A stretch of DNA of 64,000 nt from Microbispora amethystogenes. GTDB lineage: Bacteria; Actinomycetota; Actinomycetes; Streptosporangiales; Streptosporangiaceae. The stretch is from assembly GCF_016863015.1 (NCBI RefSeq), contig NZ_BOOB01000034.1, forward strand, positions 62,001 to 126,000, given 5' to 3'. Each line of letters starts with the position of its first letter. The first letter of the stretch is position 1. The notes beneath the pieces were generated by a model that was not told the origin of the DNA, searched no databases, and was given only the letters and a program-made list of their open reading frames with translations. Positions 43,363 through 54,167 of the stretch are shown in pieces. The translations under genes were made by a program, and so were the position numbers.

Positions 43363-44760
43363 TCAGGCCGGGCGGAAGGAGTCGCGCGCCTCGGGGGCCG
43401 CATGCTTGATCATGAGGTGCCGGGTGACCGAATACTCCAGCACGGCCTCCTGGCTCATGTCCTTGCCGAACCCGCTGCCCTTGACTCCGCCGTGCGGGGC
43501 CTCCGAGGCGATGGGCAGATGGTCGTTCACCCAGGTCACGCCCACGTCCAGGCGGTGGGAGACACGCAGCGCGCGGGCCACGTCCATGGACCACACGGAC
43601 GAGGCCAGCCCGTACGGCGTGGCGTTGGCGAGCCGCACCGCCTCGTCCTCGCCGTCGAACGGCATCGCCACCAGCACCGGGCCGAAGACCTCGCTCCGCA
43701 CGATCTCGCTCGCCGGGTCGGCGTCGGCGATCAGCGTCGGCGCGTAGTGGAAGCCGGGGCCGTCGATCGGCGCGCCCCCGTGGACGACGCGGCCGGACGC
43801 CCTGGTCACGAAACCGTGGACCCGCTCGCGGTGCTCGGCGCTGATCAGCGGGCCGATGTCGGCGTCGGCCGCCCAGGGGTCACCGGGCCGGACACGGGCG
43901 ACGGCCTCCCGCAGCGCCTCGACCGCCTCGGTGTACCGCGACCTCTCGACGTACACCCTGGTCGCGGCCGTGCAGTCCTGGCCGGTGTTGTAGGTGGCGC
44001 CCATGACGACCCCGGCCGCCATGTCCTCCAGCGGGGCGTCGCCGAACACCAGCGCGGGCGCCTTGCCGCCCAGCTCCAGATGGACCCGCTTGAGGCCGTC
44101 CACCGCGCCGCGCATGACCTCGCGGCCGGTGGCGGTGGAGCCGGTGACGCTGACCATGTCCACGCCGGGGTCGGTCACCAGGGCCCGCCCCACGTCCGCG
44201 CCGCCGGTCACCGCCCGTACGAGGCCTTCCGGGGCCCCGGCCTCGGCGAACAGCTCGGCGAGCCGCAGCGTGGTGCGGGGCGTCCTGGGCGCCGGTTTGA
44301 TCACGACGGCGTTCCCCGCGGCGACGGCCGGGCCGATCTTCCAGACCGCCATGATGAACGGGAAGTTCCACGGCGCGATCGCGCCCACCACCCCGATCGG
44401 CCGTTTGATCAGCACGGACGTGTATCCGGCGCTGAACACGCCCGCGCCCGTGCCGTCGAGGGACCTGGCCGCGCCGGCGAAGAACCGGAGGTTGTCGACG
44501 GCGAACGGCAGCTCGCCGTCCCGGAACACGGAGGCGGGCTTCCCGGTCTCCTCGACCTCCAGCCGGGTCAGCTCCCCGGCGTCTCGCTCGACGAGGTCCG
44601 CCAGCCGCAGCAGCACCAGCGCCCGCTCCCCCGGCGTCGTCTCGCGCCACTGCTCGAAGGCCTCCCGGGCCGCGTGCACGGCCCGCGTCACGCCGTCGGG
44701 CGGGGTGTCGCGCACGTCCTCGATGGTCTGGCCGTCGGCGGGATTGATCAATGTCGTCAT
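43363..44760 (-). CDS. Aldehyde dehydrogenase, aminobutyraldehyde/betaine-aldehyde type
   Basis: 465 residues. Catalytic Cys263 lies in TYNTGQDCTAA and the general base Glu229 in VHLELGGKAP. GAIAPWNFPF and GSTATGREV form the cofactor site. The family includes gamma-aminobutyraldehyde dehydrogenases, which oxidise the aldehyde made from putrescine to GABA. It is the third gene of a leftward operon: glycosyltransferase, FAD amine oxidase (9-base gap), this gene. A polyamine-type ABC importer lies close by, which supports an amine-derived aldehyde as substrate. Confidence 0.88.
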   Translation of the reverse strand: MTTLINPADGQTIEDVRDTPPDGVTRAVHAAREAFEQWRETTPGERALVLLRLADLVERDAGELTRLEVEETGKPASVFRDGELPFAVDNLRFFAGAARSLDGTGAGVFSAGYTSVLIKRPIGVVGAIAPWNFPFIMAVWKIGPAVAAGNAVVIKPAPRTPRTTLRLAELFAEAGAPEGLVRAVTGGADVGRALVTDPGVDMVSVTGSTATGREVMRGAVDGLKRVHLELGGKAPALVFGDAPLEDMAAGVVMGATYNTGQDCTAATRVYVERSRYTEAVEALREAVARVRPGDPWAADADIGPLISAEHRERVHGFVTRASGRVVHGGAPIDGPGFHYAPTLIADADPASEIVRSEVFGPVLVAMPFDGEDEAVRLANATPYGLASSVWSMDVARALRVSHRLDVGVTWVNDHLPIASEAPHGGVKGSGFGKDMSQEAVLEYSVTRHLMIKHAAPEARDSFRPA

Positions 44761-44769
44761 GAGTCTTCC

Positions 44770-46161
44770 TCAGCTGTCGAAGCCGATGCCGAAACGGTCG
44801 AGGACCCGCAGCCAGGGGCCCCGGCGGCCCTCGTTGTCGTCGGCGCGGGCGAGCTCGCGGCGGGTGAGCTCCACCACCGGCCAGCGCAGCGGCTCCGGCG
44901 GAAACGGCACCGGGTGATGGCGGACCATACTCAGCCTCGTCCGCGCGGTGGACCGCCCGGCCAGCAGGTCGAGGCCGACCAGCGCGCCGAACCTGGACGC
45001 GCCGACCCCGAGGCCGGTGTATCCGAGGGCGTAGGCCAGCCGCCCGCCCATGGCGGTGCCGAAGAACGGGGTGAACCGGCTGGTCGAGTCGACCATGCCG
45101 CCCCACCTGTGCGTGAAGCGCAGGCCGCGCAACTGCGGGAACGTCGCGAAGAAGTGCCGCGCGAGCCGCTCGTGCGAGGCGTCGCGCTGCTCCGATCCCC
45201 CGCCGCCGAAGTTGTAGACAGCGTCGTACCCGCCCCACAGGATGCGATCGTCCCGCGTGAGCCGGTAGTAGTGGAACTGGTTGCCCGCGTCGGTCAGGCC
45301 CTGGCCCTCGGGCCAGCGGATCGACGCCCGCTGCGCGGGCGACAGCGGCTCGGTGACGAGCACATAGTCCCAGACGGGCAGCATGAACAGGCCCAGCCTG
45401 CGCAGAGGCGAGGGAAAGGCGTTGGTGGCCAGCAGCACCTGCCCGGCGTTCACCACCCCCCGGCCTCCGGTCCTGGCCTCCACGCCGGTTCGCATCCGGG
45501 CCAGCGCGGTGACCTCGGTGCCCTCGTGGACGCGCACGCCGAGCCCGGCCGCGACGCGGGCCAGGCCCCACGCGAGGCCGGCGGGGTCGAGGAGGCCGCC
45601 CGTGCCGCGCAGGCGCAGTCCCGCGAGGTAGGTGGGCGAGCCGACGTCCGCGCGCATCTCGTCACGGCCGAGGAACACCGCGTCCTCGCCGTGCTCGCGG
45701 TGCAGTCTCTCGGCTCGCCTCAGCTCCTCCACCTGGTGGGGCGCGACCGCGACCGTGGTCTTGCCGACCAGGCGGAGGTCGGCGTCGATGCCGTGGTCGC
45801 CGGCGAAGCGGGCGATGGCCGCGAGGTTCGCCCGTCCGAGCGCGAGCAGCGCCGCGTTCTCCGACGGCCACAGCCGCATCCCATGGCCGAGGCCGTGGGT
45901 CAGGGAGTCGGAGACGAACCCGCCGTTGCGACCGCTCGCGCCGTACGCGACGGAGCGGGCCTCCACGAGGACGACGTCGCAGGCCGGGTTCTCCTGCTTG
46001 GCCAGCACCGCTGCCCACAGGCCGGTGAAGCCACCGCCGACGACCAGCAGGTCCGCCGTCGTACGGCCGTGCAGCGGCTCGTAGGGGCCGGGCGCACCGG
46101 GCCGGTCGGTCCAGAAGACCCGGGGAGCGGCGTCCTCGACCAGACGGCTGTCCCTGCTCAC
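44770..46161 (-). CDS. FAD-dependent amine oxidoreductase (DAO family, PuuB-like)
   Basis: 463 residues. The FAD fold DLLVVGGGFTGLWAAVLAKQ is at about residue 37, followed by the DAO-family signature VEARSVAYGASGRNGGFVSD, as in gamma-glutamylputrescine oxidase. The end has YALGYTGLGVGASRFGALVGLDL. The likely reaction is oxidation of an amine to an aldehyde, which the adjacent aldehyde dehydrogenase would take further. GTG at 46161 overlaps the glycosyltransferase stop by four bases (GTGA). There is no glutamylpolyamine synthetase in the window, so the substrate may not be glutamylated. Confidence 0.87.
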   Translation of the reverse strand: MSRDSRLVEDAAPRVFWTDRPGAPGPYEPLHGRTTADLLVVGGGFTGLWAAVLAKQENPACDVVLVEARSVAYGASGRNGGFVSDSLTHGLGHGMRLWPSENAALLALGRANLAAIARFAGDHGIDADLRLVGKTTVAVAPHQVEELRRAERLHREHGEDAVFLGRDEMRADVGSPTYLAGLRLRGTGGLLDPAGLAWGLARVAAGLGVRVHEGTEVTALARMRTGVEARTGGRGVVNAGQVLLATNAFPSPLRRLGLFMLPVWDYVLVTEPLSPAQRASIRWPEGQGLTDAGNQFHYYRLTRDDRILWGGYDAVYNFGGGGSEQRDASHERLARHFFATFPQLRGLRFTHRWGGMVDSTSRFTPFFGTAMGGRLAYALGYTGLGVGASRFGALVGLDLLAGRSTARTRLSMVRHHPVPFPPEPLRWPVVELTRRELARADDNEGRRGPWLRVLDRFGIGFDS

Positions 46162-47447
46162 TTGGCCGCGACGTTCTCGATGACGTCCGCGGCCACGCGC
46201 AGGCCGTCCCGGCGGCGGATCTCCTCACCGGCCGACGTGAGCCGGTCGCGCAGGTCCTGGTCGCCGAGCAGTCGCTCTACGGCCCCGATCAGTTCGTCGT
46301 CCGTGAAGCGGTAGGTGTCCAGGCGGACGCCGTACCCCGTCTCGTGCACCCGCTGGGCGTTGTCGTACTGGTCCCAGAACAGCGGCATCACGATCATAGG
46401 CCTGCCGAAGTGGAACGCCTCGGTCGTCGTGTTGTTGCCGCCATGCGTGATCACCAGGTCGACCAGTGGAATGATCTTCGTCTGCGGGACGAACTCGGCT
46501 CCCCACATGTTGGGAGCCAGCTCGATCTCCTCGTGCAGCGGGCCCTTGGAGACGATGTACCGGTGCGGCGTGCGGGCCAGCACGGAGATCACGCGGCGCA
46601 TCAGCTCGACGTCGGCCGAGCCGAGCGACCCCAGCGAGAAGTAGATCAGCGAGCCCTCGCCCGGGATGTCCGGGAGCGTGAAGTCGTCGTCGGTCTCCCG
46701 CACCGACGAGTCCAGCCGGGTCCACGACCCGCCCAGCGGCCGGTCCGCCACGTAGTCCACGATCTCGGGGTAGACGTAGAGGTTCGCGTCGCCCTCGTGG
46801 ATGAACTCCAGGTCCGGCAGTGGCGGAGCGCCCTGCGCGACCACCCACTCCTTGAACGACTCCCACACCTCGCGGTGGGTCCGGTCGTACTCGGCCCGGA
46901 AATCCGCCCAGCCCGTCCCGTCTGCGGGCAGGCCCGAGAACGGCGGAGCCACGCCCGGGCCCTTCACCTCCAGGGGGTTGCACGACACGATCCGTACGAA
47001 GGGCACGCCCGCCGTCACCAGGGCGGGGAAGGCCACCACGTTGTCCTCGACGATCACGTCCGGCCGGACCCGCTCGATGATGGCCTTGAGCTGCGGCTCG
47101 CAGTACTTGGCGCCGTCGATGAGCGCGTCCCAGATCGGCTTGGTCACGGTCTCCAGCTGCTCGGCCGTGCTCTTGCGGTACTCGGGCGCCGTGTCGCGGA
47201 TGAAGTCCTTCCAGAACTGGCCCGGGTCCTGCTCCGTCGCGTCCTGGTCCTCGGGCGCCGGCGGCGCCAGGTCGACGAGGTCCTCCTCGAAGCCCAGCGC
47301 CTCCAGCTTGCCCTTCCACGACGCCTCGGCGGCGAACACCACGCGGTGGCCGCGGCGGCGCAGGACGTCGCCGATCCCGATGCAGTTGTTCGTCGGCCCG
47401 TAGGCGCTCTCCGGCATGAACAGGATCGTCAGGGGCGTGGCCGTCAT
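46158..47447 (-). CDS. Glycosyltransferase family 1, MGT/UDP-glycosyltransferase type
   Basis: 429 residues with the GT-B fold. The N-terminal acceptor domain begins LTILFMPESAYGPTNNCIGIGDVLRRRGHRV. The C-terminal donor motif is LVDLVITHGGNNTTTEAFHFGRPMIVMPLFWDQYDNAQR. Relatives glycosylate macrolides, polyketides and other small molecules. It heads the operon with the FAD oxidase and aldehyde dehydrogenase, to which it is coupled by a GTGA overlap, and diverges from a TetR gene. A glycosyltransferase leading an amine-oxidation operon is unusual; the acceptor may be an amine or its product. Confidence 0.86.
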   Translation of the reverse strand: MTATPLTILFMPESAYGPTNNCIGIGDVLRRRGHRVVFAAEASWKGKLEALGFEEDLVDLAPPAPEDQDATEQDPGQFWKDFIRDTAPEYRKSTAEQLETVTKPIWDALIDGAKYCEPQLKAIIERVRPDVIVEDNVVAFPALVTAGVPFVRIVSCNPLEVKGPGVAPPFSGLPADGTGWADFRAEYDRTHREVWESFKEWVVAQGAPPLPDLEFIHEGDANLYVYPEIVDYVADRPLGGSWTRLDSSVRETDDDFTLPDIPGEGSLIYFSLGSLGSADVELMRRVISVLARTPHRYIVSKGPLHEEIELAPNMWGAEFVPQTKIIPLVDLVITHGGNNTTTEAFHFGRPMIVMPLFWDQYDNAQRVHETGYGVRLDTYRFTDDELIGAVERLLGDQDLRDRLTSAGEEIRRRDGLRVAADVIENVAAK

Positions 47448-47468
47448 TCGAGGCTCCTCTGCGGCTAG

Positions 47469-47484
47469 TTGAAGCGAGATTCAA
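47469..47484. promoter_or_regulatory. Shared operator candidate, copy 1 (TTGAA-N6-TTCAA)
   Basis: TTGAAGCGAGATTCAA lies in the gap between the glycosyltransferase (22 bases away) and the TetR gene. A second copy, TTGAATCCACATTCAG, lies at 52061-52076 between the importer and the kinase gene. The TetR protein encoded at 47565 is the natural candidate binder. Confidence 0.55.
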
Positions 47485-47564
47485 ATACGGAGGCTCTACA
47501 CCCGTCAAGACCTGGCGCGGTATCGTGTGGCCGGATTGAACCGGGGTGCAATGGCAGGGGCGGG

Positions 47565-48182
47565 ATGACACAGCGCAAGAGCAAGGCGGATCGGCGTCTC
47601 GACCTCATCGACGCGGCACACAGGGCGATGATCCAGCACGGCGCCGAGGGGGTCCACCTCAACCAGATCGCCGAGGAGGCGGGGCTCACCTCCGGCGCGG
47701 TGCTCTATCACTACCCCGACCTGCGCGAGCTGCTGATCGAGGCCCATCACGCCGGCATGGAGCGCTTCTACGAGCGGCGGATGAGGAAGATCAGCGGTGT
47801 CTCCGACCCGGCCGAAAAGCTGATCATCACGATCCGCTCCGGCCTGCCCGACGGCCCGGACGACGCGGGCGTGCGTCTGCTGTGCGAGCTCGGCGGCGCC
47901 GCCGGCCGCAACCGCGTCTACGCGACGCTCCTGACCACGCTGTTCGACCGGCAGGTGTCGATGTACCAGACGATCCTGGAGACGGGCGCCGCCCACGGTT
48001 TCTTCACGCTGACGCAGGACTCCGAAACCATCGCCCGCAACCTCGTCGCCCTGGAGGACGCGTACGGCTACCGGATCATCGCCCGGCACCACTCGATCGA
48101 CCCGGACAGGGCCGTCGAGCTGATCCTCGACTACGCCCGTCTGGCCACCGGCAATCCGCTCAGGCCCACCGATCGCCGCTGA
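47565..48182 (+). CDS. TetR-family regulator of the amine locus
   Basis: 205 residues from ATG 47565 (MTQRKSKADRRLDLIDAAH). The helix-turn-helix is AMIQHGAEGVHLNQIAEEAGLTSGAVLYHYPDLRELL; the rest resembles BetI-like choline/amine-responsive regulators in length and layout. A longer in-frame start lacks similarity. It sits between two leftward operons and diverges from the glycosyltransferase gene. Matching inverted repeats in its own promoter region and in that of the importer and kinase suggest it controls the whole locus, probably in response to an amine. Confidence 0.88.
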   Translation: MTQRKSKADRRLDLIDAAHRAMIQHGAEGVHLNQIAEEAGLTSGAVLYHYPDLRELLIEAHHAGMERFYERRMRKISGVSDPAEKLIITIRSGLPDGPDDAGVRLLCELGGAAGRNRVYATLLTTLFDRQVSMYQTILETGAAHGFFTLTQDSETIARNLVALEDAYGYRIIARHHSIDPDRAVELILDYARLATGNPLRPTDRR

Positions 48183-48187
48183 CCCCG

Positions 48188-49243
48188 TCATCCTGACAAG
48201 GCCACGGGGACGAGCGCGCCGTCGTCGGCGTCCCACGAGACGGCGACCTCGGCTCCGGCCTCCACCCTGGCCCGCCCCTGCGTGGCCGCGAGCACGTTGC
48301 GGTCACGACCGGCCACACTCAGCGCCACATGGGAGACACCGCCGTAGAAGCTGACGTCGACGACCCTGCCCCGCAGCACCCCCTGGTCGGCCGTGACCGG
48401 GCCGAGGCGGATCCGCTCCGGCCGTACGGCGAGCATCGCCGTCCCGCCCTCCACGGGCCCCGCGGGCGCGGGGAGCACACCCAGCCCGTCCACGTCCAGA
48501 CCCTTGCCGGTCAGCCTGCCGGTGAACAGGTTGTTGGCCCCGATGAAGCCGGCCACGAACGTCGTGCGCGGCCGTTCGTAGAGGTCCGCGGGGGCGTCCA
48601 CCTGCTCGACCCGGCCGCCGTTCATCACCGCGATCCGGTCGGCGAGCGACATGGCCTCCTCCTGGTCGTGGGTGACCACGACGAACGTGATGCCGACCTC
48701 GTGCTGCAGCCGCTTGAGTTCGAGCTGCATCTCCGAGCGGACCTTCTTGTCCAGGGCGCTCAGCGGCTCGTCGAGCAGCAGCAGCCGGGGACGCTTGACG
48801 ACGGCCCTGGCCAGGGCGACCCGCTGGCGCTGCCCGCCCGACAGCTCGTGCGGCCTGCGGCGAGCCTGCGCGGCCAGACCCACGGTCTCCAGGACCGCGC
48901 CGACCCGCTCCCGGATCTCCGCCCGGGGCAGCCGCTCCCGCTCCAGGCCGTACGCCACGTTCTTCTCCACGCTCATGTGCGGAAAGAGGGCGTACGACTG
49001 GAACATGAGGTTGACCGGGCGGCGGTGCGCGGGAGTCGCGAGCAGATCGGCCCCGTCGAGGAGCACCGCACCGGCGTCGGGCTGTTCGAACCCGGCGAGG
49101 ATCCGCAGCAGAGTGGTCTTGCCGCAGCCGGACGGCCCCAGCAGGGCGAAGAACTCGCCCTGCCGGATCTCGAGGACGACCGAGTCGAGCGCGGTCACCT
49201 CGCCGAACCGGCGGCTCACACCGTTGATGGAGATGAGGGTCAT
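48188..49243 (-). CDS. potA: Spermidine/putrescine-type ABC transporter, ATP-binding protein
   Basis: 351 residues. Walker A GPSGCGKTT is near residue 36, the signature LSGGQRQRVALARAVV follows, Walker B is LLLLDEPLSALD, and the C-terminal TOBE domain is about 100 residues. PotA-like subunits drive uptake of polyamines and related cations. ATG at 49243 overlaps the permease stop by four bases (ATGA); the longer reading upstream is another frame of the permease. It ends 5 bases from the convergent TetR stop. Confidence 0.93.
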   Translation of the reverse strand: MTLISINGVSRRFGEVTALDSVVLEIRQGEFFALLGPSGCGKTTLLRILAGFEQPDAGAVLLDGADLLATPAHRRPVNLMFQSYALFPHMSVEKNVAYGLERERLPRAEIRERVGAVLETVGLAAQARRRPHELSGGQRQRVALARAVVKRPRLLLLDEPLSALDKKVRSEMQLELKRLQHEVGITFVVVTHDQEEAMSLADRIAVMNGGRVEQVDAPADLYERPRTTFVAGFIGANNLFTGRLTGKGLDVDGLGVLPAPAGPVEGGTAMLAVRPERIRLGPVTADQGVLRGRVVDVSFYGGVSHVALSVAGRDRNVLAATQGRARVEAGAEVAVSWDADDGALVPVALSG

Positions 49244-50013
49244 TTCAGGGCCTCGGTCAGCCTGGTCAGGCGCTGCGCGACGATCACGACGGTGAAGCTC
49301 ACCGCGAGCAGCAGCGTCGCCAGCGCGTTGATCTCGGGGGTCACGCCGAACCGCACCATGGAGTAGATGACGATCGGCAGGGTCGGCTCGGACGGAGCCG
49401 CGGTGAAGAACGCGATCACGAACTCGTCCAGTGAGAGCGTGAAGGCGAGCAGCGCGCCCGCGACGATGCCCGGGGCGAGCGTGGGCAGGGTGACCTTGAC
49501 GAACGTGGTCAGCGGGGTCGCGCCGAGGTCCCGGGACGCCTCCTCCAGCGACGTGTCCATGCCACCGAGCCTGGCCCGGACGACGGCCGCGACGAAGGCC
49601 ATGCCGAAGACGGTGTGCGCGATCAGCACGGAGTGCAGCCCGAGCGTCAGCTTGACCGCGGAGTAGAACGCCAGCAGCCCGATCGCGATGACGAGGTCGG
49701 GCAGGATCGCGGGCAGCGTCGAGAGCGCGTCGAGCAGCCGCGAGCGGGTGTGGCGGGCCAGCCCGACCGCGAGCAGCGTGCCGAGCACCGTGGACAGCGC
49801 CGTCGAGCCGAGAGCGACGATCAGCGTGTTGACCAGCCCGGTGCGGATCGACGCGTTGCCCGCCAGCGTGCCGTACCAGTCGAGGGAGAAGCCACCCCAC
49901 GAGTAGGGCGACCTGTTCCGGTTGAACGACATCACGACGAGCACGACGATCGGCGCGTACAGGAACAGATAGGTCAGCCAGAAGGGCAGCCGGAGCCAGC
50001 CGTGTCTACGCAC
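49240..50013 (-). CDS. potC: ABC transporter permease, PotC-like
   Basis: 257 residues with about six membrane helices and the EAA loop LEEASRDLGATPLTTFVKVTLPTL. The N-terminus is RLPFWLTYLFLYAPIVVLVVMSFN. PotC pairs with PotB to form the channel of a polyamine importer. GTG at 50013 overlaps the potB-like stop by 8 bases, and its own stop overlaps potA, so the genes are tightly coupled. Confidence 0.93.
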   Translation of the reverse strand: MRRHGWLRLPFWLTYLFLYAPIVVLVVMSFNRNRSPYSWGGFSLDWYGTLAGNASIRTGLVNTLIVALGSTALSTVLGTLLAVGLARHTRSRLLDALSTLPAILPDLVIAIGLLAFYSAVKLTLGLHSVLIAHTVFGMAFVAAVVRARLGGMDTSLEEASRDLGATPLTTFVKVTLPTLAPGIVAGALLAFTLSLDEFVIAFFTAAPSEPTLPIVIYSMVRFGVTPEINALATLLLAVSFTVVIVAQRLTRLTEALK

Positions 50014-50872
50014 CGCGTCCCGCCCTCCGCGCGGCCCACGCCTGGGCGAACAGGAGCAGCACGAGCACGGCGATCACGGCCAGCGCGAGCACCGACCCGA
50101 ACGGCCAGTCGCGGGCCTTGAGGAACTGGTCGCGGATGAGGTTGCCGACCATGATCCGGCGTCCGCCGCCGAGCAGCTCAGGAATGACGAAGTTGCCCAG
50201 GCTCGGCACGAACACGAACACGCATCCGGTCAGCACGCCGGGCAGCGACAGCGGGAGCGTCACCGACCAGAACGTCCTGGCCGGCCGCGCGCCGAGGTTC
50301 GCCGAGGCCTCCCGCAGTTGCGGGTCCAGCCGCTCCACGGCGGAGTACAGCGGGAGGATCATCAGCGGGAGATAGGCGTAGAGCAGCCCGGCGACGATGG
50401 CGCCGTCCGTGTAGAGCAGCTCCACCGGCCGCAGGCCGAGCGCCTTCAGCCCGGAGTTCACCGGCCCCTCGGAGTTGAGCAGCACGATCCAGGCGTACGT
50501 GCGGATGAGGAAGTTCGTCCAGAACGGCAGCACGACCGCCACCAGGGCGACGACCTTCCACCGGGCGGGCAGCCTCGCGATCAGGTACGCCGTCGGATAC
50601 CCGAGCAGCAGGGCGAGCAGCGTCGTGATCGCCGCGAGCTTCACCGACCCGACCACCACGTCGAGGTAGAGCGGGTCGGCGAGGCGGGTGAAGTTCTCCC
50701 CGGTCGGCTCGTAGACCACTCCCCCGAACCGGCCCCGGCGGAACACGGTGTAGCTCAGCACCAGCGCCAGCGGGACCAGCAGGAAGACGGTCAGGAAGCC
50801 GAACCCGGGCCCCATCGTCGCGAGGCGGCCGGCCGCCTTCCCGAGGACGCGGGCGGGCTGTCGAACCGTCAT
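50006..50872 (-). CDS. potB: ABC transporter permease, PotB-like
   Basis: 288 residues from ATG 50872, which overlaps the binding-protein stop by four bases (ATGA). Six helices are visible, with FLTVFLLVPLALVLSYTVFRRG at the start and the EAA loop LREASANLGARPARTFWSVTLPLSLPG. The region between helices 1 and 2 (GGVVYEPTGENFTRLADPLYLDV) is typical of PotB. Confidence 0.93.
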   Translation of the reverse strand: MTVRQPARVLGKAAGRLATMGPGFGFLTVFLLVPLALVLSYTVFRRGRFGGVVYEPTGENFTRLADPLYLDVVVGSVKLAAITTLLALLLGYPTAYLIARLPARWKVVALVAVVLPFWTNFLIRTYAWIVLLNSEGPVNSGLKALGLRPVELLYTDGAIVAGLLYAYLPLMILPLYSAVERLDPQLREASANLGARPARTFWSVTLPLSLPGVLTGCVFVFVPSLGNFVIPELLGGGRRIMVGNLIRDQFLKARDWPFGSVLALAVIAVLVLLLFAQAWAARRAGRGA

Positions 50873-51960
50873 TGCGCCGCCGAGACCTCGGTGGACAGGC
50901 GCGTGTACGCGGTGGACGCCTCGCCCAGGTCGACCAGGCTCTCCCCCTTGAGCAGCTCGGACGGCGGCTCCGCCAGCGCCGGGTAGCTCTTGAGCAGTGC
51001 CGGGTCGACCTTGTCCATGGCCGCCTTGTTGGGGATCCGGTAGAGGATGTTCGCGGGCACCCAGCCGTGGTTCTCGGGGTCGAGGATGTAGTTGACGAAG
51101 GCGTGCGCCGCCTCCTTGTTCTTGGAACTCTTGAGGATCACCATCGTGTCCGCCCAGAGGTCGCTGCCCTCCTTCGGCACCACGAACTCGATGTTCTTCT
51201 CCGCCGTCGGGCACCAGCCGTCCCACGCCTCGACCAGCACGGCCTCGCCGGACTTGAGCCGGTCGCCGAACGTGGTGTCGTCGTAGGCCAGCAGGTCGGG
51301 CTTGACCTTCAGCAGCATCGCCTTGGCCTTGTCGAGCGTGGCCTGGTCGGTGGTGTTGACCGAGGCGCCGAGCAGCTTGAGGGCGGGCAGCGCCAGCCAC
51401 CGCTCGGTGGTCATCATCGTGATCTTCTTCTTGAGCTCGGGGGCCGGGTTGAGCAGGTCGTTCCAGCTCGTCGGCGGAGTCTTCACCAGGTCGCTGCGGT
51501 AGCACAGCCCCGTGGTGCCCCAGGTGTACGGGACGGAGTAGGCGTTGCCCTTGTCGTAGGCGAGCTGCGACGCCTCGGGGTAGAGGTTCTTCAGGTTCGG
51601 GACCAGCTCGCGGTGGATGGGCTCCAGCAGGCCCTGCGCGTTGAGCGCCTGCGCGTACTGACCGGACACGAACGCCACGTCGATGCCGCTGTCGCCGCCG
51701 GCGGTCAGCTTGGCCACGATCGTCTCGTTCGTGTCGTGGATGGCGACCTTGGTGTCGAAGCCGAGCGTGGCCTTCACCCGCTGTGGCAGATCCTTCGGGC
51801 TGTAACCCTCCCAGATCGAGATCGTCAGGCTCTGCCTGGACAGGTCCGCGCCGGCGTCGAGCGCCGCGGGCGCGGAGTCGGTCACCGCGCCGCCGCCGCA
51901 GGCGGTCAGCGCGGATGCAAGACAGGCAGAGGCCACGACGACGGGCACGCGACGTGTCAT
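50869..51960 (-). CDS. potD: Polyamine-type substrate-binding lipoprotein, PotD-like
   Basis: 363 residues. A lipoprotein signal, VVVASACLASALTAC, ends at Cys20 for lipid anchoring. The mature part follows the PotD/PotF pattern: SLTISIWEGYSPKDLPQRVKA, then VAFVSGQYAQALNAQGLLEPI and YSVPYTWGTTGLCYRSDLV. It is the first gene of the potDBCA operon and would set its specificity. Binding-site residues cannot be checked without a structure, so putrescine, spermidine or another cation are all possible. Confidence 0.92.
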   Translation of the reverse strand: MTRRVPVVVASACLASALTACGGGAVTDSAPAALDAGADLSRQSLTISIWEGYSPKDLPQRVKATLGFDTKVAIHDTNETIVAKLTAGGDSGIDVAFVSGQYAQALNAQGLLEPIHRELVPNLKNLYPEASQLAYDKGNAYSVPYTWGTTGLCYRSDLVKTPPTSWNDLLNPAPELKKKITMMTTERWLALPALKLLGASVNTTDQATLDKAKAMLLKVKPDLLAYDDTTFGDRLKSGEAVLVEAWDGWCPTAEKNIEFVVPKEGSDLWADTMVILKSSKNKEAAHAFVNYILDPENHGWVPANILYRIPNKAAMDKVDPALLKSYPALAEPPSELLKGESLVDLGEASTAYTRLSTEVSAAQ

Positions 51961-52060
51961 GGGGGACTCCCTTGCGTGAGGATGGCGGCCAGTGTTGCAG
52001 GACGGCTCAACCTAGACAAGACTTTGGCCATCACGTCTACCTTCGCTTTTTGTCGGCTTG

Positions 52061-52076
52061 TTGAATCCACATTCAG
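52061..52076. promoter_or_regulatory. Shared operator candidate, copy 2 (TTGAA-N6-TTCAG)
   Basis: TTGAATCCACATTCAG contains the perfect inner repeat TGAAT-CCAC-ATTCA. It shares TTGAA-N6-TTCA with the site at 47469-47484. It sits 8 bases before the kinase start, overlapping its ribosome-binding site, and 100 bases before the importer operon, so one bound dimer could affect both. Confidence 0.5.
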
Positions 52077-52084
52077 GAGATCGA

Positions 52085-53173
52085 GTGGAAGGCTCTCGTT
52101 GGCCTCGGGTCACCGAGGAGCCGGACGGCGCCCTCGCGCTGGAGATCGGCGACGGGGTCACCGGGTGCGTCCTGCGCGATCTGGCCGGTGGAACCGCTCC
52201 GCCGCCCTTCTCGGTGCGTGCGCTGCGGCCGCTGCCGCCGGTGCCGCCCGGAGAGCGGCCGATCACGGTGGACCAGACCAACCACTCCGTGATCGCGGGC
52301 GAGACCGTGGTGGTCAAGTGGTTCCCCCGGCCCTCGCGGGCCCCGCACCCGGCGCCCGGCCTGCTCGCCCATCTGGCGGGTTTCGCCCGTACGGCCACGC
52401 CGTACGCCGCGGTCTACTGGGAGGACGCGCTGGTCGCCCTGGTGACCGCGTACCTGCCGGAGGCGCGGGACGGCTGGGAGTGGTGCGTCGACGAGGCGGA
52501 GGCGGGCCGCACGGACTTCGCCGCCGACATCGGCTCCCTGGCCGCCGAACTGCACCTCGCGATGGCCGCCCCGTCCGGGGTCTTCCCCGACCCCGTACGG
52601 CTGTCGCCACCGGGCTCCGGTGCCTGGCGCGAGCGGGCGGAGGAGGCGCTGCGCGAGGCGCTGGCGCTGACGGACGGCGAGGACGGCGTCTGGCTGGCGG
52701 GGCGGGCCGAGACTCTGCGGCGCGAACTGGAGCCCCTCGCGTCGCCGGCCGCCACGCCGCTGATCCGCGTCCACGGCGACCTGCACGTCGGGCAGATCCT
52801 GCGGTGGCGGGACGGCTACGCGGTGGTCGACTTCGACGGCAACCCGACCGTGGCGGGCGCCGATCCCTACCAGCCGGCCGCCCGCGACCTCGCGCAGCTC
52901 ACCACGAGCGTGGACCACGCGGCGCAGGTGGCGGTCAGGCGCAGGTCCGCCGGCCCCGCCGCGACGGCCGCCTGGGCCGTCTCCGCGCGGCGGAGACTTC
53001 GGACGGCCTACACGCGGACGCTGACGGAGGCCGGACGGTCCGGCCTGCTCGACCCGACGCTGCTACGGCCGTTCGAGGTGGAGCAGGAGTGCCGGGAGCT
53101 CATCTACGCCGCCCGGCACCTGCCCCGCTGGCGGTACGCCCCGATGGGCGTGCTGCGGTCCTGGTTCGGATGA
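52085..53173 (+). CDS. Glucosamine-kinase-like phosphotransferase (actinobacterial GlcNK/maltokinase family)
   Basis: 362 residues from GTG 52085 with AGGAGA upstream. The catalytic loop HGDLHVGQILR is at 230-240 and the metal motif DFDGNP at 249-254, in the aminoglycoside phosphotransferase fold. The family includes actinobacterial maltokinases and glucosamine kinases, which use ATP to phosphorylate maltose at O1 or glucosamine at O6. The HVGQI and DFDGNP signatures favour the glucosamine group. A SIS-domain gene follows 46 bases later. The substrate is an inference. Confidence 0.8.
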   Translation: MEGSRWPRVTEEPDGALALEIGDGVTGCVLRDLAGGTAPPPFSVRALRPLPPVPPGERPITVDQTNHSVIAGETVVVKWFPRPSRAPHPAPGLLAHLAGFARTATPYAAVYWEDALVALVTAYLPEARDGWEWCVDEAEAGRTDFAADIGSLAAELHLAMAAPSGVFPDPVRLSPPGSGAWRERAEEALREALALTDGEDGVWLAGRAETLRRELEPLASPAATPLIRVHGDLHVGQILRWRDGYAVVDFDGNPTVAGADPYQPAARDLAQLTTSVDHAAQVAVRRRSAGPAATAAWAVSARRRLRTAYTRTLTEAGRSGLLDPTLLRPFEVEQECRELIYAARHLPRWRYAPMGVLRSWFG

Positions 53174-53219
53174 GCGGTCCGCGTGCGCGGCTCCCGCGAA
53201 GAGAGGGTGGAGACAGACG

Positions 53220-54167
53220 GTGAACTCGACGCTGTTCGGGGAAGACCTGGAGGCCAAGCCGGCCGCGCTGGAGGCGCTGGCCCGGCAGCTGGACGCCGGT
53301 GACCCGTTCGAGGGGCTGGCACGACGGTTCGACCGGATGGTCTTCCTCGGCATGGGCAGCTCCCGCTATGCGGCGGGGGTGGCGGCCGGGCGGCTGCGGG
53401 CGGCCGGGGTGGACGCGGTCGCCGAGTACGCCTCCGCCGCGCGCGGCACCCCGCCCGGCCCACGGACGGCCGCCGTCGTCGTCTCGGCCTCGGGCGGCAG
53501 CCGGGAGACCCTCGACGCCCTGGCCCGGCACGCGGGCAGGTCGTTCGTCGTGGCGCTGACCAACCGGCCCGGCTCCCCGGTGACCGAGGGCGCCGACCTG
53601 GTCGTGCCGATGCTCGCGGGCGAGGAGCGGGGCGGCGTCGCCTGCCGGACCTTCCAGCACACGCTCGCCCTCCTGCTCACGCTCGCCGAGGGCTCCGTGG
53701 CCGTGGCGGGCCTCGTACGGCGGGCCGCGGAGGCCACCGCCGACCTCCTGGAACGGCGGCCGGAGTGGCTCGCGGACGCCGTGGCGCTGCTCGACGGGCC
53801 GCACGGCGTCTACACGATCGCCCCCGCCGAGCGGCTGTCGTCGGCCGAGCAGTCGGCGCTGATGTTCCGCGAGGGCCCGCGCCGCCAGGCCGACGCGTGC
53901 GAGACGGGCGACTGGGCGCACGTGGACGTCTACCTCACCAAGACCTGCGACTACCGGGCCGTCCTGTTCCCCGGCTCTCGGTACGACGACCAGGCGATGG
54001 AGTGGATCAGACAGCGTGGATCGCGGGTGCTCACGGTCGGCGGCGAGGCCGAGGGCCAGGCGGCGGCGGTGCGCTACCGGCACGACGACGACCCGGACGT
54101 GACCCTCCTCACCGAGACGCTGGTGCCCGAACTCGTCGCCGCGGCGCTCTGGCGCGGGACGGCCTGA
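53220..54167 (+). CDS. SIS-domain protein (glucosamine-6-phosphate deaminase/isomerase-like)
   Basis: 315 residues with two SIS domains like the isomerase half of GlmS. The first has FLGMGSSRYAAGVAAGRLRA and VVVSASGGSRETLDAL; the second has YTIAPAERLSSAEQSALMFREGPRR. There is no glutaminase domain. Such proteins isomerise or deaminate amino-sugar phosphates or related amine adducts. GTG at 53220 has GGAG upstream. It follows the kinase-like gene in one operon; kinase then deaminase would move an amino sugar into glycolysis. Confidence 0.87.
   Translation: MNSTLFGEDLEAKPAALEALARQLDAGDPFEGLARRFDRMVFLGMGSSRYAAGVAAGRLRAAGVDAVAEYASAARGTPPGPRTAAVVVSASGGSRETLDALARHAGRSFVVALTNRPGSPVTEGADLVVPMLAGEERGGVACRTFQHTLALLLTLAEGSVAVAGLVRRAAEATADLLERRPEWLADAVALLDGPHGVYTIAPAERLSSAEQSALMFREGPRRQADACETGDWAHVDVYLTKTCDYRAVLFPGSRYDDQAMEWIRQRGSRVLTVGGEAEGQAAAVRYRHDDDPDVTLLTETLVPELVAAALWRGTA

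Follow-up and report, generated by a model that had tools for sequence, protein, structure and literature searches.

A conserved actinobacterial gene set uniting a Pot-type importer, a glycosyltransferase and a glucosamine-kinase-like protein: a likely TetR regulon with a possible role in amine breakdown

The window, a 64,000-nucleotide stretch of the 8.13 Mb Microbispora amethystogenes genome (C34:62001-126000), contains between its positions 43363 and 54167 ten genes that form a conserved unit and are likely to constitute a single TetR regulon. They encode an aldehyde dehydrogenase (ALDH), an FAD oxidase of DAO fold, a GT1 glycosyltransferase (GT), a TetR-type regulator, the importer subunits PotA, PotC, PotB and PotD, a glucosamine-kinase-like protein and a SIS protein (Table 1). 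Our interpretation, tentative and in our estimate just short of an even chance, is that this one TetR-controlled regulon lets the cell take up a primary amine and break it down by oxidation, in a process that involves an amino sugar. Gene order is observed directly; regulation and, more so, substrate chemistry are predicted from sequence.

The ALDH, oxidase and GT genes run leftward, with tetR divergent from GT; potA, potC, potB and potD also run leftward as one operon, from which the kinase-like and SIS genes diverge at potD. The GT gene and the kinase–SIS pair are separated by 4.6 kb that hold the importer and tetR. Gene calls were made from open reading frames (ORFs), codon score and Pfam/NCBIfam profile searches, and they bear out the gene kinds named in a preliminary description of the locus (GT, FAD oxidase, ALDH, TetR, potDBCA-type importer, kinase-like and SIS genes), which had counted nine genes where there are ten. 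That description had also expected a neighbourhood conserved rather than scattered in relatives, two related halves and no glutamylpolyamine synthetase at the locus; the comparisons below agree with it on all three, the second as judged in silico.

Conservation of the gene set and its operator-like sites

Window genes and flanks were mapped by tblastn onto the best 80 of 456 confirmed GT relatives, that is, the near end of the family, in which the closest named relatives by GT are Microbispora. GT and all eight usual partners occur together in 55 of these 80 loci. Individually, a kinase lies near GT in 68, SIS in 65, PotD in 69, PotB, PotC and PotA in 65 each, a TetR homologue in 69, ALDH in 70 and the oxidase in 10. 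Because the flanking genes are conserved in just 9–11 of the same loci, the association of the set is beyond chance; accidental proximity was rejected on this comparison and on the recurrence of the set in other families. Six of the 25 incomplete loci stop at a contig edge (L056, L058, L060, L073, L075 and L077). At this place, PotD and GT are the only set members in eight loci from Herbidospora and Acrocarpospora (L018, L019, L021, L022, L025, L026, L028 and L029), PotD is the sole missing partner in four (L023, L024, L027 and L030), the transporter is missing in five (L014, L015, L017, L020 and L088, with L017 also lacking TetR), one has only the triad of GT, kinase and SIS (L031) and one only GT (L078). 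The neighbourhood of ALDH in L014, L015 and L017, which have lost the Pot importer, contains a different set of ABC-importer-like genes as well as a GntR-like gene.

The block lies beside or between sets of conservon-like genes (named by eye), with at least three such genes at 60 of the 80 loci (L009–L088), and this position is taken as its ancestral place. Both pieces were read in three genomes with split sets (G033, L092 and L093; G027, L094 and L095; G038, L096 and L097). There, PotD, together with GT in two of the three, remains between conservon-like genes, and the kinase, SIS, PotB, PotC, PotA, TetR, oxidase and ALDH genes are found at the second place in all three.

Beyond the near relatives, a survey of 246 genomes of the class detected, at the thresholds used, the kinase in 35, GT in 37 and both in 31; judging by coordinates, the two genes are no more than about 5 kb apart in 28 of these 31. 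GT occurs without the kinase in six genomes (G042, G045, G105, G129, G188 and G273), one of them represented by a 3.2 kb contig (G129) and another having a weak kinase homologue (G273), and the four genomes with a kinase and no GT have the four weakest kinase scores. Neither gene was detected at these thresholds in G169, which belongs to the window's own genus. Among 198 genomes drawn from the phylum, GT is present in 25, mostly beyond the window's class. A further 38 loci were read; the window's family contributed 11 of them (L136–L146) and other families in the same class 27. All ten genes are found in four of the other-family loci (L117, L120, L122 and L129); L125 has all but a called ALDH, and L130 all but TetR and the oxidase. 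Two main gene orders are seen, that of the window in L117 and a second, with GT, kinase and SIS together, in L120, L122, L129, L125 and L130; the carriers of L130 and L129 have genomes of 1.3 and 1.8 Mb. In the 18 phylum-survey loci read, several of them on short contigs, a kinase is found only in L167, L169, L171 and L173 and SIS in L169, L170, L171 and L173; L165 and L173 have Pot genes of this type.

When up to one mismatch is allowed, the window has three copies of the palindrome TTGAA-N6-TTCAA where 0.04 would be expected, and each lies in one of the two divergent gaps. The exact form is present once in the whole genome (Table 1); with one mismatch allowed there are 24 places, most of which are near chance level, since a reversed control pattern gives 11. 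At the same tolerance, a site is found in the TetR/GT gap of 69 of 73 distinct loci, as 39 different 16-mers (missing in L033, L043, L068 and L071), and in the kinase/PotD gap of 57 of 58, as 36 different 16-mers (missing in L081). These counts leave out 11 loci from G-numbered genomes that repeat named loci; before their removal the figures were 72/77 and 61/62, compared with shuffle expectations of 0.1 and 0.0, respectively. Elsewhere in the 100 loci (1.99 Mb), 22 sites fall within the opening 305 bases of called kinase genes, reflecting either wrong start calls or a second site; a further 12 are internal to other genes, and several more are in different gaps.

Sites are present on both pieces of the split sets in G033, G027 and G038. 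Genomes of the split type carry one at 18 of 18 listed loci, and a site also precedes each of the 11 displaced potD genes read, nine of which share two site sequences; the high half-site conservation in split-genome sites is partly due to how the sites were picked. In other families a site lies in the divergent gap of L120, L129 and L124. None was found in the set gaps of the 18 phylum-survey loci, where the one site (L180) has GT as the only set gene nearby. Because the palindrome occupies both divergent gaps and is retained in split sets, the two halves are read as one predicted TetR regulon, a conclusion we consider well supported; palindromic operator-like sites in divergent promoters are what a TetR repressor circuit would have. 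Two independent halves were rejected in silico on the same grounds.

Table 1. Features of the studied interval, in window coordinates
Feature	Position	Strand	Evidence
ALDH, aminobutyraldehyde/betaine-aldehyde type	43363-44760	-	Pfam Aldedh 509 bits; NCBIfam PRK13473 608.6 bits (cut-off 615)
FAD oxidoreductase, DAO fold, accessory member	44770-46161	-	Pfam DAO 176.9 bits; TIGR03329 200.9 bits (cut-off 632.8)
GT1 glycosyltransferase	46158-47447	-	Pfam UDPGT 65.4 bits; donor motif HGGNNTTTE...WDQYDN; Pro18
Operator-like palindrome TTGAA-N6-TTCAA, exact	47469-47484	.	about 20 bp upstream of GT
Second operator-like site, one mismatch	47536-47551	.	directly upstream of TetR
TetR-type regulator	about 47565-48182	+	ORF, sequence by eye, conserved homologues (69/80 loci)
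PotA-type ATPase	48188-49243	-	TIGR01187 potA 358.7 bits (above cut-off 355.6)
PotC-type permease	49240-50013	-	PRK09500 233.9 bits (cut-off 326)
PotB-type permease	50006-about 50872	-	PRK09497 250.5 bits (cut-off 348); start inferred from potD overlap
PotD-type lipoprotein, altered ligand site	50869-51960	-	sequence comparison with PotD proteins
Operator-like palindrome, one mismatch	52061-52076	.	inside PotD/kinase gap
Glucosamine-kinase-like kinase	about 52085-53173	+	6hwj 181.6 bits; NF041273 269.4 bits (cut-off 550); signature residues
SIS protein, GlmS-isomerase / glucosamine-6-phosphate deaminase fold	53220-54167	+	

Predicted chemistry of the enzymes and the importer

The GT is far closer to UGT203A2 and UGT202A2 (7lvy and 6pnt) of the spider mite Tetranychus urticae than to other solved structures; the nearest, UGT203A2, matches over the whole length with 264.6 bits. 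The bacterium that donated the UGT genes of the mite may have had a GT close to this family. UGT203A2 has the catalytic His, whereas the actinobacterial family has Pro at this column (Pro18) in 145 of 145 distinct sequences and so is without the N-terminal His of O-glycosyltransferases; the donor-binding HGG...DQ motif is intact (HGG and DQ in 97 of 97 rows). Paralogues from the window's own genome do not calibrate this column, because the four matches are very distant (31.6–77.8 bits) and their residues mixed (L, D, D and H). Human UGT1A4 and UGT2B10 are not known to carry the catalytic His either; by its title, Kerdpin 2009, which PMC5075577 cites, deals with these residues. The human enzymes resemble the GT family in this respect but are distant from it (55.4 bits for the C-terminal domain of UGT2B10). 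Both favour amines, according to passages of PMC5075577. The Pro in place of His and this parallel suggest, by analogy, that the GT may carry out N-glycosylation, which a natural family with Pro throughout, often beside amine genes, makes directly testable.

The importer has four subunits of the right kind for PotABCD in one operon, in the order D-B-C-A. PotA exceeds the TIGR01187 cut-off and the PotD fold is closest to solved PotD proteins; PotB, PotC and PotD fall below equivalog cut-offs. By contrast with the spermidine/putrescine importer, in which E36, E171 and D257 (E. coli numbering) contact the spermidine amines (PMC4096761, in part), the window PotD keeps only D257, with E36 replaced by G, E171 by W and D168 by T. 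All 74 family rows share the changes at 171 and 168, as do 12 of 13 rows from the wider set, L131 being the exception; D257 is kept throughout. The ligand would be expected to carry a single ammonium group and, at its other end, something bulky or able to stack.

The kinase-like protein matches NCBIfam and PDB (6hwj) entries and no Pfam family. It carries the glucosamine-kinase signature Q-x2-RE-x2-YA-x3-LP-x-W, as QECRELIYAARHLPRW, and the DxH motif, as D-L-H, both given in passages of PMC6520443. The signature Q, R, E, Y, L and W are present in 81 of 81 rows that have residues there, A in 75 and P in 76, and class-wide the signature residues occur in 21–22 of 22 rows. Being below the NF041273 equivalog cut-off, it is assigned only as glucosamine-kinase-like. 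The SIS protein has a two-domain SIS fold with the active-site Glu and His expected of a GlmS isomerase or deaminase. Relatives of it at 44–51% occur in 16 of 61 family genomes; the 12 loci read (L147–L158) mostly have a his/trp-like context (by eye), and these were rejected as set members, the context indicating a different paralogue. The kinase was not found in the six of the 12 paralogue genomes in which it was searched, and the L147 paralogue lacks the GSS motif.

The ALDH has Cys263 and Glu229, both conserved in 93 aligned rows. No curated name can be given to the oxidase, as no profile reaches its cut-off. In L110, L112, L113, L134, L115 and L118 an aminotransferase gene is the neighbour of SIS or GT or at most two genes away, that of L110 scoring as PRK06541. 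Agmatinases that exceed the curated cut-off adjoin GT in L131 and are found in L130 at a distance of about 6 kb from SIS. Together, the ALDH class, the oxidase or aminotransferase, the Pot importer and the nearby agmatinases point to an amine substrate.

In the scheme we propose, PotDBCA would import a compound of the kind described above, and the GT, without its usual catalytic His, would glycosylate an amine rather than a hydroxyl. The FAD oxidase, or an aminotransferase in some lineages, would convert the amine to an aldehyde and ALDH the aldehyde to an acid; here the enzyme classes are clear and the substrates predicted. Glucosamine freed or consumed in the cycle would be phosphorylated by the kinase, classed by its published signature, and the SIS protein might interconvert the phosphorylated product with fructose-6-phosphate and ammonia. 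An inducer would free TetR from the sites in both divergent promoters, recognized by their conservation and predicted to be bound.

Known systems and competing explanations

Putrescine is broken down by the Puu pathway (PuuA-D). With this route and the gamma-glutamylpolyamine pathway of Streptomyces (PMC5403932, in part), the set shares amine import, a DAO-fold oxidase and ALDH. Unlike both, it is without a glutamyl ligase or hydrolase and has the GT, an amino-sugar kinase and SIS instead. The ten genes include no member of the glutamine-synthetase kind, to which gamma-glutamyl ligases such as PuuA and GlnA3 belong; five PF00120 matches occur in the genome, all on contigs other than the window's, and action in trans is possible. 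A GlcNK-SIS-GT1 triad of Actinobacteria has already been described, without an assigned role (Manso et al. 2019, PMC6520443, in the passages available). At our locus the same three gene kinds lie in one conserved cluster, with the kinase signature and DxH. They differ in being accompanied by PotDBCA, TetR, ALDH, the oxidase and a shared operator-like site, and in a kinase that scores below the cut-off; the comparison is by gene kind. The preliminary description knew of no pathway with this combination: the triad itself is not new, and its link to importer, oxidase and ALDH is, having been found neither in the passages of PMC6520443 nor by a search of open-licence papers aimed at this combination. 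Also new are the Pro-for-His exchange in the GT and a PotD in which a single one of the three amine-binding acids is left. The locus places the glucosamine kinases of actinobacteria in a physiological context; the role of that family had been left open in 2019, with a leaning towards antibiotics (PMC6520443).

Several observations weigh against the amine regulon that we tentatively prefer. The substrate of every step is predicted from sequence, and the release of glucosamine is unexplained, since no glycosidase is found among the set genes. Glucosamine may not be the real kinase substrate, because the score is low (269.4 versus 550 bits) and a characterized relative has a Km of 8 mM for it (PMC6520443, in part). 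Of the 80 near loci, 70 lack the oxidase; the L115 aminotransferase scores as an ordinary ornithine transaminase and may be a bystander; and L131 has a different type of binding protein, in which positions 168 and 171 are acidic. No site with up to one mismatch is present in L117, L122 and L125, though they have a TetR homologue. The set is also patchy: in an even draw of 61 family genomes, at the thresholds used, GT is present in 28, PotD in 14 and a close SIS (at least 68%) in 16. The triad occurs without Pot genes or ALDH in L109, L114, L116, L121 and L126, GT and kinase without nearby Pot genes or a called SIS in L119, and GT alone or in tandem, with no called kinase, in L078, L136–L144 and most of the other-class loci read. 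Of the combination of polyamine transport and oxidation with amino-sugar phosphorylation proposed in the preliminary description, only part is supported. Its suggestion that a glycosylated polyamine is imported finds no support in that form, given these loci without Pot genes, the oxidase in 10 of 80 near loci and the loss from PotD of two of three spermidine-amine acids.

Independence of the triad from the Pot part (L031, L109 and L114), and of the GT from the kinase, would also suit parallel modules under one switch: amine breakdown by Pot, oxidase and ALDH, glucosamine salvage by kinase and SIS, and a detoxifying GT, all responding to a shared condition, for example the presence of decaying chitosan-rich material, and forming no single pathway. 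Many members of the UGT/macrolide-GT superfamily, in which the GT falls, are detoxifying enzymes. However, the same set in other families and the operator kept in split genomes suggest a tighter link, and we consider this account possible yet somewhat unlikely. A bolder form of the preferred amine regulon, which seems to us rather unlikely, has the His-less GT cap one amine with an amino sugar in place of gamma-glutamylation; the oxidase or aminotransferase and ALDH would burn the other end, and kinase and SIS recycle the amino sugar. This would be a third bacterial route of amine or polyamine catabolism, spread through Actinomycetota including small genomes. It is quite unlikely, in our judgement, that a ready-made glucosamine–amine conjugate (an N-substituted amino sugar) is imported instead, the kinase acting at C6, SIS splitting the product in the style of the FrlB deglycase into sugar phosphate and amine, and the oxidase and ALDH burning the amine; the single ammonium contact of PotD, with Trp at the place of E171, and the high Km for free glucosamine are consistent with it. 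The anatomy of kinase, SIS and importer also resembles that of operons for Amadori compounds.

That the triad makes the sugar part of a secondary metabolite, with importer and oxidases incidental, accords with the proposal of Manso et al. and with triads inside predicted biosynthetic clusters in several species (PMC6520443, in part). Against this stand the recurrence of the set in several families and in the 1.3 and 1.8 Mb genomes, and recurring neighbour families that do not look biosynthetic (mostly named by eye, without a cluster finder). We regard it as very improbable, and an antibiotic-cluster reading is not favoured. If the amine regulon handles a polyamine-like substrate, it may bear on amine use by small-genome aquatic actinobacteria, polyamine transporters having been reported in the acI lineage (PMC5574706, in part).

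Other neighbours of the glycosyltransferase

Tandem GT copies with no called kinase are found in L136, L137, L138 and L139, and in L136, L138 and L139 they adjoin dnaK-grpE-dnaJ-hspR-clpB-like genes. Saccharopine-dehydrogenase-like genes lie near GT in L131 and L127; the former scores 178.7 bits as carboxynorspermidine synthase (cut-off 800) and the latter has no NCBIfam match. A cupin-like small gene (named by eye) adjoins GT in unrelated families (L110, L113, L180 and L181).

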